A stretch of DNA of 64,000 nt, taken from the NCBI GenBank assembly GCA_027315165.1, contig DAHUYN010000001.1:1-64000 (forward strand), read 5' to 3'. Origin of the DNA: Thermoplasmata archaeon. Its GTDB lineage: Archaea > Thermoplasmatota > Thermoplasmata > Lutacidiplasmatales > UBA184. This document shows positions 43,270 to 48,150 of the stretch, in pieces; positions within the stretch are counted from its first letter, which is position 1, and each line of letters begins with the position of its first letter. A program made the position numbers and the translations under genes. The notes beneath the pieces were generated by a model. That model was given only the letters and a program-made list of their open reading frames with translations, had not been told where the DNA came from and ran no database searches.

Positions 43270-44208
43270 TCACGCCTCGGACTTGGGACGGGTCGTCGGC
43301 AGCGGCTCCGACTCCCTCGACTGGAGCAGCTCCGCCGGCGCGAGGTGCGTGATCTCGAGGCCCTTCATGGCCTCGCCGAGACCGGTCGAGACGCGGGCGA
43401 GGAGCTCGGCGTCGTCGTAGTGGTGCGACGCCTCGACGATCGCGCGCGCGACCTTCGTCGGGTGCTGCGACTTGAAGATCCCGCTGCCGACGAAGACGCC
43501 GTCGACGCCGAGGTGGCGGCACAGCGCGGCGTCCGCCGGGGTCGCGATGCCGCCGGCGGCGAAGTTGACGACGGGGAGCCGGCCCCGCTCCTTGACGTCG
43601 GCGACGAGCGACGTCGGGACGCGCTCGGCCTTGGCCCACGCCTCGAGGTCGCGGCGGCCCATCTTGTGGACCTCCTCGATGTCGGCGTTCATCTGGCGGA
43701 TGTGGCGGACCGCCTCGACGACGTTGCCGGTGCCGGCCTCGCCCTTCGTGCGGATCATCGCGGCGCCCTCGTCGATGCGCCGGAGCGCCTCGCCGAGGTT
43801 CCGCGCGCCGCAGACGAACGGGACCTGGAACGACTTCTTCTCGACGTGGCGGAACGGGTCCGCGGGCGTGAGGACCTCGGACTCGTCGATCATGTCGACG
43901 CCGAGCGACTCGAGGATCCGGGCCTCGGTCGTGTGGCCGATGCGGCACTTGGCCATGACGGGGATCGAGACCCGCTCGCGGATCTCGCGGACCTTCGTCG
44001 GGTCGGCCATCCTCGCGACGCCCCCGGCGGCGCGGATGTCGGCGGGGACCCGCTCGAGCGCCATCACCGCGACGGCGCCCGCCTCCTCGGCGACGGCGGC
44101 CTGTTCGGCCGTCGTCACGTCCATGATGACCCCGCCCTGCTGCATGCGGGCGAAGCCGCGCTTGACGAGCTCGGTCCCGAACCGAAGCTTCTCGACAGGG
44201 TCGGGCAT
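43270..44208 (-). CDS. pdxS: Pyridoxal 5'-phosphate synthase, PdxS subunit
   Basis: A protein of 312 residues. [13 protein letters not shown], active-site K87 (M-A-K-C-R-I-G-H) and K155 ([10 protein letters not shown]) are intact. It condenses ribose 5-phosphate, glyceraldehyde 3-phosphate and ammonia to PLP. The glutaminase PdxT is not adjacent. ATG 44208 is supported by a TATA box 28 bases upstream; the longer open frame upstream is antisense to the thiamine genes. Confidence 0.96.
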
Positions 44209-44231: not shown

Positions 44232-44239
44232 GATTATAA
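44232..44239 (-). promoter_or_regulatory. TATA box of pdxS
   Basis: Minus strand CTTATAAT in a GC-rich context, about 28 bases before ATG 44208. Supports a leaderless or nearly leaderless pdxS transcript. Confidence 0.65.
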
Positions 44240-44265: not shown

Positions 44266-44273
44266 CTTTAAAC
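44266..44273 (+). promoter_or_regulatory. TATA box of the TPP-riboswitch/thiBPQ operon
   Basis: CTTTAAAC, centred near 44270. Initiation about 25 bases on (near 44295) would fall at the 5' edge of the TPP riboswitch, so promoter and aptamer positions agree. Confidence 0.65.
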
Positions 44274-44292
44274 CGCCGTTCGTTCCGTCGGT

Positions 44293-44384
44293 TCGCAGGG
44301 GGAGCTGTGGACCGGCTGAGAGGACGAGCTTCGCTCGTCGACCCCACGAACCTGCACGGGGTAATGCCCGCGAAGGGACCGCGA
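44293..44384 (+). promoter_or_regulatory. TPP riboswitch (THI element)
   Basis: All hallmark elements are present in order. P1 is TCGC (44293-44296) with GCGA (44381-44384). The GGGG run near 44298-44302 can pair with CCCC at 44342-44345 (P2). P3 is GCTG/CGGC and leads into CTGAGA (44316-44321). A seven-pair hairpin GACGAGC-TTC-GCTCGTC follows (44323-44339). Then come ACCC, GAACCTG, the stem CGGG-GTAATG-CCCG (44357-44370) and GCGAAGGGA (44370-44378). This is the conserved thiamine-pyrophosphate aptamer. It lies 40 bases before a ThiB-like gene, so it should repress transporter expression when TPP is abundant. Confidence 0.93.
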
Positions 44385-44401
44385 TGCGCGACCTGACGGC
44401 T

Positions 44402-44423
44402 CCTCCCGCGGGCTGGCGGGAGG
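44402..44423 (+). promoter_or_regulatory. Expression-platform hairpin of the TPP riboswitch
   Basis: CCTCCCGC (44402-44409) pairs perfectly with GCGGGAGG (44416-44423) around a six-base loop, ending one base before the ATG at 44425. The 3' arm contains the only Shine-Dalgarno-like sequence, so the hairpin would hide the ribosome-binding site. No T-run follows, which argues for translational rather than terminator control. Confidence 0.65.
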
Positions 44424-44424
44424 G

Positions 44425-45591
44425 ATGACGGCGGCCCCGAGCCTCCCGACGGCGCGGGCGAAGACCCGGCGGCGTGCCGGGACGCTGTCGCGTCGCCTGG
44501 TCGCGATCGCGATCACGGTCGTCGCCGTCCTCGCCGCCTACGCGGCCTACGCCTACGTCGTGTCGCTCCCGCCCGCCGGCACGACGCGCCTCGTCGTCTA
44601 CACGTACCCGTCGTTCTTCGGCGGCAACTGCAGCCTCTCCAAGCCGCTCGCCACGGCGCTCGCCCCGTTCGAGAGCCGCGAGCACGTCTCCGTCGACCTC
44701 GAGTGCCCCTCCGACCTCCTCTCGACGCTCGAGTCGGAGAAGGCGGCGCCGAACGCGGACGTCGTCGTCGGCCTCGACGAGGTGACGGCGCCGGAGGCGA
44801 TGGCGCTCGGCCTCGTCACGCCCTACGTCTCCCCCGAGCTCGCGAACGTCTCGCCGGACGTCGCGGGCGAGCTCGACCCGGGCCACGGGATCGCGCCGTA
44901 CGAGTGGGGCTACCTCGCGATCGACTACACGCCCGCGTTCTATAACGCGACGCACGGCGCCATCGCGCACTCTTCCTTCTCGAACTTCACCCAGAACGCG
45001 ACGTGGCGCAACGGGCTCCTGATCGAGAACCCGACGACCGACATCGTCGGCGAAGAGTTCCTCCTGTGGGAGGTCGAGTTCTCCGAGGCGATCCTCCACG
45101 AGAACTGGACGACGTGGTGGATCGACGGTGGCGCGAAGGCGCCGAGCGCGCCGGACTGGGGGACGGCGTTCAACGAGTTCCTCTCGCAGCCGGCGCTCTA
45201 CCCGACGGTCGTGAGCTACACGACGGACTCGGCCTACGCGGCCGGGACCGGCACGCCGGGCTCGCTCAACACGACGGTGACGACCTGGAACGGGACGCAG
45301 TACGGCTGGCGGACCGTCTACGGCGCCGCCGTCGTCCACGGCTCGCACCACACGGCCCTCTCCGAGGCGCTGATCGACTGGCTCCTCGAAGGCTCGGTCC
45401 AGTCGGCGATCCCCTCGAACGAGTGGGAGTACCCGGCCAACACGACGACGCCGCTGCCTCCCTCGTTCTCGGCGGCGCTCGACCCGTCCCAGATCGTGCC
45501 CCTCAACGACGCTACGACGCCGACGGCGATCGCCTCGCAGCTCCCCACCTATCTCTCGGAGTGGCAGGCGATCGAGAACCAGTACGGATGA
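44425..45591 (+). CDS. thiB: Thiamine ABC transporter substrate-binding protein
   Basis: A protein of 388 residues. An N-terminal membrane anchor (about 24-47; no lipobox cysteine) precedes a type II periplasmic-binding fold. Y-T-Y-P-S-F-F near 59, [20 protein letters not shown] and [11 protein letters not shown] match the ThiB family. It is directly downstream of the TPP riboswitch and coupled to the permease by ATGA. The ligand is thiamine or a phosphate ester by inference from the riboswitch. Confidence 0.9.
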
Positions 45592-47201
45592 GGCGCGGGG
45601 CCGCTCCGACACTCGCCCTCGCGCCCGTCTCCCTGTTCGTCGGCCTCCTCGCCGCCCTGCCGGTCGCGTTCCTCGTCGGGCGGGCGCTCGTGTCGTCCGG
45701 TCTGCCGGGGCTCGTCGCCGCGTGGAGCGACCCGCTCAACGGGCAGGCCGTCGAGAACTCGCTCGTGCAGGGGGGCCTCAGCGCCGTCGCGACGGTCGCC
45801 TCGGGCTACCCGCTCGGCGTCCTCCTGGGTCGCTACGACTGGCGCGGCCGCTCCGTCGTCCGCGCCGCGCTCGTGGTGCCGTTCCTATTGCCGTCGCTCG
45901 TGATGGTCCTCGGCGTCGAGGATCTGTTCGGGCCGACCTCGCCGATGGCGCAGGCGCTTCCCGCCGTCACGCAGCTCGCTCGAGGGGTCCCCGGCATCGT
46001 CCTCGTGAACCTCCTGTTCAACGTCCCGATGGTCGCGCTCCTCACGGCCGTCGGGATCGAGAGCGCGTCGGCGCCGCTCGAGGAGACCCTGACGACCCTC
46101 GGCGCCGGCCCGCTCCGGGTCTATCGGGAGGCCTGGGGGCCTCCCTCGTGGCGGGGGGCTCTCGCCGGCGGGCTCCTCACGTTCCTGTTCTCCGCGCTCG
46201 CCTTCGCCGCGCCGCTCCTCCTCTGCGGGCCGCGATGCTACACCGTCGAGGCCCGGGTCTGGTCCCTCGTTCGCGAGCTGCTCGCTCCCGGCGAGGCGGC
46301 CCTCCTCGCCGGGACGATGGTCGTCCTCCTCGTGGCGCCGGCGCTGGCCTACTTCCTGCTCGTCCGCCGCCTCGAGGGTGCCGGGCCCGGGGCCTCCCGC
46401 CGCCTTCGTCCCATCCCGTGGCGCTCCCCGGGGGCCTGGCCCGTCCTCGCCGCCTCGGTCGCGGTGCTCGCGCTCCTCACGGGGCTCCTCGGCTCCGTCG
46501 TCGCGCGGGCCGTCGTCGCCGCCCGACCCGGGGGAGCCCCGGGGAGCGCCTGGGGCGCGCTCTTTACCGGGTCGGCGACCGCGGGCGGGATCCCGACGAG
46601 CGCGGCGCTCGTGAACTCGCTCGTCTTCGCGGGCTCCGCGGCGGCGATCGCGACGCTCTTGGCCGTCGCCGCCGGCTTTGCGCGTCGCGACGGCGTGCGC
46701 TCGGCGCTGCGGGTCTATCTGTTCCTGCCGCTCCTCGTCTCGCCCGTGGTCCTCGCCTTCGCCCTCGCTACGTTCTGGCGGCCGCTCCTGGGCGGCGACG
46801 CGCAGGTGTGGCTCCTCGTCCTTCTCGCGCAGGCGACGGTCGCGCTCCCGTTCGCGCTGCAGAGCCTCGACGTCGGCCTCGCCGCGGTCCCGAGAGCGTT
46901 CCGGGAGGCCGCCCAGAGCCTCGGCGCCCGGCCGTTCGCGGCCTACCTCGAGGGCGAGCTCCCCCTGGCCCGCGGGGCCCTCGTCACGGGGGCGCTGTTC
47001 GCCTTCGCCCTGGGCCTCGGCGAGTTCACGGCGACCTACTTCCTCGTCACGCCCGCCTTCACGACGCTCCCGGTCGAGCTCTACCACTACGCCGCGACGA
47101 GGGCCGCCGGCCTCGCCGACGCGCTCGCCGGGCTCCTCGTCGTCGTGAGCCTCGCCGCGTTCCTGCTCGTGCAGCGGGGAGGGTACCGTGTCCTCCTCTG
47201 A
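45588..47201 (+). CDS. thiP: Thiamine ABC transporter permease (two fused permease halves)
   Basis: A protein of 537 residues with about 12 membrane segments and two permease (BPD_transp_1) halves. Typical cytoplasmic coupling loops are seen as [11 protein letters not shown] (first half) and [11 protein letters not shown] (second half). This is the ThiP/FbpB double-length layout. ATG 45588 overlaps the thiB stop; the 3' end overlaps the ATPase gene by 14 bases. Confidence 0.92.
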
Positions 47202-48150
47202 GGGCCTCGAGGTCGTCGACCTCGCCGTCGCCTGGAACGGCGTGCGGGTGCTCGACGGCGTCACGTTCTCGCTGCGCCCCGGCGAGCTCGTGACGCTGAT
47301 GGGCCCGAACGGCTCGGGAAAGACGACGCTCCTCCGGGCGATCGCCGGGTTCGAGCCGGTCGCCGCCGGCCGGGTCTCCCTCGAGGGCCGGGACCTCGCG
47401 CGCGTGCCGCCCCATGCGAGGGGGGTCGGCCTGCTCTTCCAGGAGCCGGTCCTGCTGCCGCGACGCACCGTCGCCGAGAACCTCGCCTTCGGGCCCGAGG
47501 TCCAGCGGCTCGACGCGACGCTCGTCGCCGCGAGGGTCGCCGAGGCCGCGGAGCGCCTCCACCTCGGCGACCTCCTCGACCGGCCCAGCGAGGCGCTCTC
47601 GGGGGGCGAGCGGCAGCGCGTCGCGCTCGCGAGGACGCTCGCCGCCCGGCCCCGGCTCGTCCTGCTCGACGAGCCGTTCGCCGCCGTCGACCCCGAGCTC
47701 CGCGCCGAGCTCCGCTCGGAGTTCCGCCGCATCCTGCTCCGCGAGGGGGTCTCGGTCCTCCACGTGACCCACGACCGCGAGGAGGGCCTCTTCCTCGGCG
47801 ACCGGGTCCTCCTCCTCGACCGGGGCCGCCTCGTCCAGGCGGGACGCCCTCGAGAGGTCTTCGAGAACCCGGCGACCGCCGGCGTGGCGAGGTTCCTTGG
47901 TTACAACGTCGCCCGCGAGGGCGACCGGCTCGTGGCGGTGCACCCGACGGAGGTCGAGCTCCTCGCGCCCGAGGGCGCGGAGGTCGAGGCGACGGTCGTC
48001 GCGAGCGGCCCGGTCGGCGACGGGTGGGCCGCCTTCCTCGAGGCCCGTGACGGGGCCCGCTGGGAGGTCCGGGGACGATCGGGCCCTCCGCCCGTCGAGG
48101 GAGCGCGCGTCGGTCTCCGGGGACGTCGGCGCGTGCTGCTGCCGCGATGA
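47188..48150 (+). CDS. thiQ: Thiamine ABC transporter ATP-binding protein
   Basis: A protein of 320 residues. Walker A G-P-N-G-S-G-K-T-T, signature L-S-G-G-E-R-Q-R-V-A-L-A-R, Walker B L-V-L-L-D-E-P and the H-loop H-V-T-H-D are intact. The C-terminal 90 residues are a TOBE-like regulatory domain, making it longer than bacterial ThiQ and nearer to PotA/FbpC. It starts with GTG at 47188 inside the thiP 3' end. It powers the ThiBP importer. Confidence 0.92.
   Translation: MSSSEGLEVVDLAVAWNGVRVLDGVTFSLRPGELVTLMGPNGSGKTTLLRAIAGFEPVAAGRVSLEGRDLARVPPHARGVGLLFQEPVLLPRRTVAENLAFGPEVQRLDATLVAARVAEAAERLHLGDLLDRPSEALSGGERQRVALARTLAARPRLVLLDEPFAAVDPELRAELRSEFRRILLREGVSVLHVTHDREEGLFLGDRVLLLDRGRLVQAGRPREVFENPATAGVARFLGYNVAREGDRLVAVHPTEVELLAPEGAEVEATVVASGPVGDGWAAFLEARDGARWEVRGRSGPPPVEGARVGLRGRRRVLLPR

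Follow-up and report, generated by a model that had tools for sequence, protein, structure and literature searches.

Which start codon does a thiamine pyrophosphate (TPP) riboswitch regulate when a short open reading frame (ORF) lies between its aptamer and the importer gene? This question is raised by the thiB operon of a soil-dwelling Thermoplasmata archaeon (Lutacidiplasmatales; UBA184), which lies on the forward strand of the 64,000-nucleotide stretch of DNA analysed here, referred to as the window (assembly GCA_027315165.1, contig DAHUYN010000001.1, positions 1 to 64,000). We found that a 14-codon leader ORF begins at the 3' edge of the aptamer and ends on the start codon of thiB. We consider it probable that this is a TPP OFF-riboswitch in which the regulated start codon is that of the leader cistron, not that of thiB, and that thiB would be translated by termination-reinitiation. 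The proposal draws on the following features.

44288 to 44396, forward strand: TPP riboswitch aptamer (RF00059), in which helix P1 is formed by 44293-44296 with 44381-44384
44373 to 44378, forward strand: AAGGGA at and near the 3' strand of helix P4 of the aptamer, a partial Shine-Dalgarno (SD)-like sequence that precedes the start codon of the leader by 5 nt
44384 to 44428, forward strand: leader ORF of 14 codons (ATG CGC GAC CTG ... GGA TGA), whose TGA overlaps the thiB ATG (ATGA, 44425-44428)
44402 to 44423, forward strand: start-codon hairpin CCTCCCGC-GGGCTG-GCGGGAGG, eight pairs plus a U-G
44425 to 45591, forward strand: thiB, encoding the 388-aa thiamine-binding subunit of an ABC importer (TIGR01254, 2qry)

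The aptamer belongs to a known kind. RF00059, the Rfam model of the TPP riboswitch, matches 44288-44396 on the forward strand with 58.5 bits (E 6.8e-09; gathering cut-off 54.3), which bears out the claim of an earlier note on this DNA that a THI element lies upstream of thiB (44266-44425). At the gathering threshold RF00059 is the sole family matched in the window, and a genome-wide search returned the copy at the thiB operon as the sole TPP match. The element stands upstream of thiamine transport genes (ThiB lies just over the TIGR01254 cut-off and matches 2qry), and we conclude that it is a real TPP riboswitch. We found RF00059 in 39 of 61 genomes of relatives, including 36 of 37 from the window's genus (the window counted), and, under stricter filters than in the 61-genome search, in 193 of 400 genomes sampled from the class. 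In a control set 10 of 14 genomes match, with 0 of the 4 archaeal controls among them. Because of the matches in relatives and across the class, the TPP element is common within the class, so the earlier statement that such riboswitches are few in archaea needs a limit: it does not hold there.

The leader ORF, which the earlier note had overlooked, carries the argument. In the window, P1 ends on the base with which the ATG of this ORF begins, and the ORF runs through the hairpin. We compared this arrangement across a family sample of 64 loci, 49 from the window's genus (48 genomes) and 15 from genera g24, g27, g28 and g29 (14 genomes), all taken from the matches listed, with weaker matches left out. 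Removal of L034, in which the contig ends before thiB, and of two repeats in the leader stretch left 61 unique loci. The leader start codon lies exactly 5 nt past the aptamer GGGA in 60 of these (55 ATG, 5 GTG; the exception is L081), and elsewhere from -5 to +9 relative to it no position has either codon in more than 7 of 61 loci. In 59 of 61 loci, compared to 3.7 expected from dinucleotide shuffles, the leader stop lies between -5 and +11 nt relative to where thiB starts, a range chosen after the loci had been viewed. An overlap of exactly 4 nt is present in 43 of the 59; the overlap is longer at L078, and L081 lacks a leader ORF. Of 78 genomes of the window's genus, 72 gave aptamer cores in a pattern search, and ATG stands at +5 of 74 of the 75 cores obtained. 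A similar pattern in other genera found 17 cores, 15 with ATG or GTG at +5. No core was obtained with the similar pattern in genus g25, and g25 loci are outside all counts. Eight held-out loci, of 30 fetched, all have the leader ORF, the overlap and a stop in frame 1, six with the exact 4-nt overlap; two of the eight are identical in this stretch and some resemble loci already used.

Among loci with 41-nt spacing, the mean pairwise identity of the ORF body is 0.49 (range 0.16-0.97), too low for the leader ORF to be put down to recent ancestry alone. Entropy at codon positions 1, 2 and 3 is 1.24, 1.22 and 1.32 bits across 38 loci of the genus, with almost no 3-base periodicity. Since the codon positions vary almost equally, the peptide is without visible selection, and what is kept is length, start and stop. 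The leader peptide itself is probably irrelevant, and on the near-equal entropies we rejected a selected leader peptide or peptide-sensing attenuator ORF. We also rejected a programmed frameshift from the leader ORF into thiB, as 11 of 61 loci have 40-nt spacing, which is in another frame than spacings of 38, 41 and 44. At L003 (G038, from the window's order), the reading frame opened by the ATG nearest the aptamer continues without a break into ThiB (MLQLSPHTGERK-MKEKD...), as though leader and gene had been fused. Overall, the evidence for a leader ORF, as read from the sequence comparisons, is strong.

We next considered the start of thiB itself. The earlier note had described an eight-pair hairpin that hides the SD of thiB in a mostly leaderless genome. 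The hairpin is there, with eight pairs plus a U-G between 44402-44409 and 44416-44423. The leaderless impression is also reasonable. A home-made gene caller predicted 422 genes in 448,597 bases of the archaeon's own genome, of which 370 could be classed (217 first genes and 153 operon-internal genes). A strong SD at -16 to -3 was found at 19 of 217 first genes compared to 12 in an internal control window, and at 50 of 153 operon-internal genes compared to 7 in the control; we base the leaderless reading on strong SDs being rare at first genes and frequent at internal ones. Any four-base SD match is somewhat enriched at first genes (56 of 217 compared to 35 of 217). The hidden SD did not find support. 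GGAGG lies at 44419-44423 and the thiB ATG at 44425, a spacing of 1 nt, and 39 of the 46 GGAGG copies before operon-internal genes of this genome are 4-10 nt away. Across the family, GGAGG at thiB occurs at spacings of 0-2 nt only (25 of 61 loci), as part of the hairpin arm, and a strong SD at -16 to -3 before thiB was found at 0 of the 61 unique loci, four-base matches being outside this count. We thus rejected an SD-sequestering switch at thiB in the form first described. A 4-nt overlap is present at 61 of the 153 operon-internal genes, 25 of these 61 with a strong SD, which suggests that thiB is built like an internal cistron whose first cistron is the leader ORF.

Our data indicate that the hairpin arms are matched to each other within loci. 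In an arm-swap test across 60 loci, cognate arms gave a mean of -13.6 kcal/mol compared to -10.8 kcal/mol for swapped arms, and 0 of 10,000 permutations did as well; per locus, cognate pairing is stronger than the swapped-arm median in 51 of 60 cases and stronger than 90% of the swapped arms in only 14 of 60. In the fold predicted for the window, the hairpin has a probability of 1.00 whether the RNA folds freely or the aptamer is imposed, so it is apparently not the part that switches. Pairing of the leader ATG in the window rises from 0.05 to 0.52 when the aptamer is forced. The window fold is consistent with a fixed lock at thiB and says little about the switch itself.

The overlapping stop and start at ATGA (44425-44428) are those expected of a coupled gene pair, and the following sequence of events would fit the locus. 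When TPP is absent, the aptamer would open at its 3' part (P1 and P4), and a ribosome would start on the leader ORF. By reading the ORF the ribosome would melt the hairpin, stop at the leader TGA and restart on the overlapping thiB ATG. With TPP, the aptamer would close over the leader start region, the ORF would go unread, the hairpin would stay shut and thiB would be off. OFF control of translation by TPP remains the likely outcome.

Several observations weigh against this proposal. A strong SD before the leader start codon was found at 0 of the 61 family loci, the window included, so initiation there is weakly explained. Within the window's genus, G405 has no ATG at +5, and genus g24 breaks the pattern, with no leader start at L081 (G079) and no start at +5 of the core in G234. 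Of the 0.52 pairing of the leader ATG, 0.33 is the forced U-A pair itself; pairing of AAGGGA hardly shifts when the aptamer is forced (0.46 to 0.50); and forcing costs 12 kcal/mol of stability relative to the free fold, with ligand and tertiary contacts left out of the calculation. The pair between GGGGAGC-4 and u-2, present at 54 of 60 loci, is the only P1 pair to beat shuffling, and pairing that involves the first base of the leader ATG is no commoner than chance (14 of 60 loci). We accordingly dropped the idea of P1 extending into the ATG as a conserved lock, since pairs beyond P1 are at chance, as are most P1 pairs. RNAalifold on the plain hairpin alignment found no common pairs, perhaps, we think, from the stem shifting register between loci, and z for folding of the hairpin region is below -2 in 26 of 61 stretches. 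Lastly, in free folds across the family the pairing of the hairpin region is mostly with sequence outside it in 39 of 60 loci and mostly local in 21 of 60, which leaves room for an anti-sequestor.

Such an anti-sequestor is the core of a classical switch. In the free state, the 5' strand of the aptamer (GGGGGAGC) would pair with the 5' arm of the hairpin and free the thiB start, TPP would fold the aptamer and so allow the hairpin to cover that start, and the leader ORF would be secondary. The duplex of aptamer 5' strand and 5' arm is predicted at -24.5 kcal/mol in the window, and its mean over 60 loci is -15.7 kcal/mol compared to -12.3 kcal/mol for shuffled arms; the mutual match of the hairpin arms, and the elsewhere-pairing of the hairpin region in those 39 of 60 free folds, point the same way. 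However, only 30 of 60 loci beat the shuffled mean by more than 2 kcal/mol, which makes the duplex weaker as a family trait, and the window hairpin is present in both predicted states. This explanation must also do with 0 of 61 thiB loci carrying a strong SD at usable distance, and it leaves the ending of the leader ORF at the thiB start (59 of 61 loci) unaccounted for. We regard it as unlikely.

The G+C-rich hairpin 3' of the aptamer could instead act on transcription, by termination or pausing, with leader translation having no role. This is very improbable: no T-run follows the hairpin, the coding sequence starts at once, and the overlapping ORF would again be left without explanation. We give equally little credence to the leader ORF being an accident, that is, an ATG that fell by chance at the 3' edge of the aptamer in a G+C-rich stretch that happened to stay open for 14 codons. 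Two points would favor an accident: conservation of the aptamer has causes of its own, and few stop codons occur in DNA so rich in G+C. Against it, ATG swaps with GTG in place when neighboring positions carry either codon in at most 7 of 61 loci, the overlap occurs at 59 of 61 loci when 3.7 are expected, and a second family has the same arrangement with other ORF lengths. Coupling of thiB to the leader cistron remains our preferred reading.

The leader stretch has a further conserved signal.

44394 to 44396, forward strand: conserved stop TGA in frame +1 of the leader ORF, a stop being present at u+1 to u+13 in 60 of 61 loci

This stop in frame +1 is found in 60 of the 61 unique loci (63 of all 64) compared to 4.9 of 61 expected, and no stop occurs at these positions in either of the remaining frames. 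The first such stop is at u+10 in 49 of 64 loci, at u+13 in 12 and at u+1 in 2, with the codons TAG (28), TGA (26) and TAA (9). An AUG is present in loop L5 in 52 of 64 loci and missing in 12, and frame +1 has no agreed start codon. Frame +1 may be read from inside the aptamer, for example from the L5 AUG; alternatively, its stop may insulate the hairpin from stray ribosomes. We tentatively raise, with more doubt than confidence, a second mini-ORF in frame +1 that runs from an aptamer-internal start to the conserved stop, forming a chain of overlapping mini-cistrons through which ribosomes, besides TPP, might decide the folding of the aptamer.

We questioned how the element is wired in other families of the class. 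Family f19, which we provisionally take to be Thermoplasmataceae, has 75 loci among the matches listed, of which 72 could be anchored and 3 could not. The anchored loci comprise 27 in which the aptamer opens the transporter directly, 32 coupled and 13 neither, with GGAGG in the aptamer in 59 of 72. In a stricter recount of 60 unique GGAGG loci, with limits chosen after examples had been viewed, 28 open the transporter directly, 1 has no ATG or GTG, and 31 open a short ORF, which ends at the transporter start in 27 of 31 loci compared to 2 and 3 in the other frames. Most loci of f19 and f31 have GGAGGGA, a full SD, at the position of the P4 3' strand. Family f31 is direct in 11 of 12 loci and f27 and f3 are direct in 1 of 1 each; coupled loci number 3 of 6 in f11, 1 of 7 in f25 and 0 of 2 in f26. 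Since f19 (27 of 31) and f11 (3 of 6) have coupled loci and f31 is mostly direct, the putative leader cistron is found beyond the window's family, though not throughout the class. Unlike TPP riboswitches at the many loci of the class that open the transporter directly with the SD inside the aptamer, the element at thiB would give its output through a leader cistron. Archaeal THI elements were reportedly described by Rodionov in 2002 as directly overlapping start sites.

Two other arrangements were seen among these families. The ABC-type ThiB loci of f11 and of part of f19 mostly have a third design, as judged by eye (L095, L096, L231, L236 and similar), with a CTTnTCTGGCAGGAGA-like block that carries an SD-like sequence at normal distance; several of these loci have ATGGATCCTGC just inside the gene, complementary to GCAGGA. 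At L060, L064, L097, L099-L101 and L252 (f25 and f26), a TPP riboswitch precedes a protein with KYPMGKVSR or a close variant, approximately 350 aa where complete, and several of these loci have a TTTTCAGC-like block and a hairpin of the GACCCTGAGGAGTC kind.

The thi operon has its own promoter and continues past thiB with two further importer genes.

44267 to 44272, forward strand: TATA box TTTAAA of the thiB operon, at the A/T peak of the 64-locus profile
45588 to 47201, forward strand: thiP-like permease (BPD_transp_1; matched ORF 45591-47201), start from gene calling, 4-nt overlap with thiB
47188 to 48150, forward strand: thiQ-like ATP-binding subunit (ABC_tran, 124 bits), 14-nt overlap with thiP

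The TATA box had been noted before and is backed by the profile of the 64 family loci, in which A/T content peaks about -33 to -28 before GGGGAGC (0.80-0.92 at -32 to -29), with an A-rich stretch at -37 and -36. Going by the usual spacing of archaeal promoters, transcription presumably starts near the 5' strand of P1. On the reverse strand, divergent from the thi operon, lies pdxS, the lyase subunit of PLP synthase (43270-44208), with TTATAA at 44234-44239; the distance from there to its ATG, approximately 28 nt, would suit a leaderless transcript.

The identification of the operon as a thiamine importer, also made earlier, holds up at ThiB, which passes TIGR01254 by one bit (94.4 compared to a cut-off of 93.4) and has a match to 2qry, a thiamine-binding protein of solved structure (E 2.8e-12). 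Against Pfam, ThiB gave no family at E 0.001. Its relatives include 'Candidatus Lutacidiplasma silvani' and UBA184. The permease matches ThiP models below their cut-offs, and the ATP-binding subunit matches many ABC ATPase models, with the ThiQ model below cut-off; because the specific models score below their cut-offs, ThiP and ThiQ are named from context. ThiC has no match in the archaeon's own genome, which is 94% complete. Thi4 gave five short partial matches of approximately 40-50 residues each, the best at the cut-off (26.2), which we took as a shared nucleotide-binding motif and rejected. The absence of a ThiC match, together with only short partial Thi4 matches, fits dependence on thiamine import, and the organism is likely a thiamine auxotroph reliant on imported thiamine. 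Lutacidiplasmatales have been described (PMC9287336), and the main text of that description contains no word beginning with thiamin or riboswitch.

The closest parallels come from known systems. A B12 riboswitch of ppe2 in Mycobacterium tuberculosis is reported to control a short ORF, uPPE2, which overlaps ppe2 at AUGA, and ppe2 is without an obvious SD; PPE2 expression depends on uPPE2 translation, mainly through termination-reinitiation, in a translational OFF switch (PMC11260477). The thiB locus resembles ppe2 in having a riboswitch before a short ORF, an AUGA overlap and a downstream gene with no obvious SD. It differs in ligand class and host, being a TPP element in an archaeon where ppe2 has a B12 element in a bacterium and an upstream ORF with an SD (PMC11260477); here, moreover, the start codon adjoins the 3' edge of the aptamer and a hairpin is predicted at the second start. 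With other RF00059 riboswitches, including euryarchaeal ones (PMC2258182), it shares the same aptamer before thiamine transport genes. Termination-reinitiation at overlaps has been demonstrated experimentally in archaea, with strict coupling reported for 13 of the 14 pairs of genes assayed in Haloferax and E. coli (PMC6728339); unlike the arrangement at thiB, those pairs have no riboswitch on the first start codon. The fluoride riboswitch of Thermococcus kodakarensis is archaeal and is thought to act on translation, and a 2021 report names it as the sole natural riboswitch of Archaea to have been established experimentally (PMC8241225). The thiB element has another ligand and another aptamer.

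In the arrangement predicted at thiB, an archaeal riboswitch would gate a leader cistron to which an importer gene is coupled, a new output for a known kind of riboswitch. No report of such an archaeal arrangement was found among the matches listed from the open-licence literature, judged by titles and abstract openings. If true, this would be a natural archaeal riboswitch acting through a leader cistron and reinitiation, as for B12 in M. tuberculosis. The arrangement suggests a route to a leader-based switch in a largely leaderless system, in which the start of a mini-gene would be switched and the real gene would be an operon-internal cistron. The second family with the same arrangement may include cultured Thermoplasmataceae, which would make the proposal testable.
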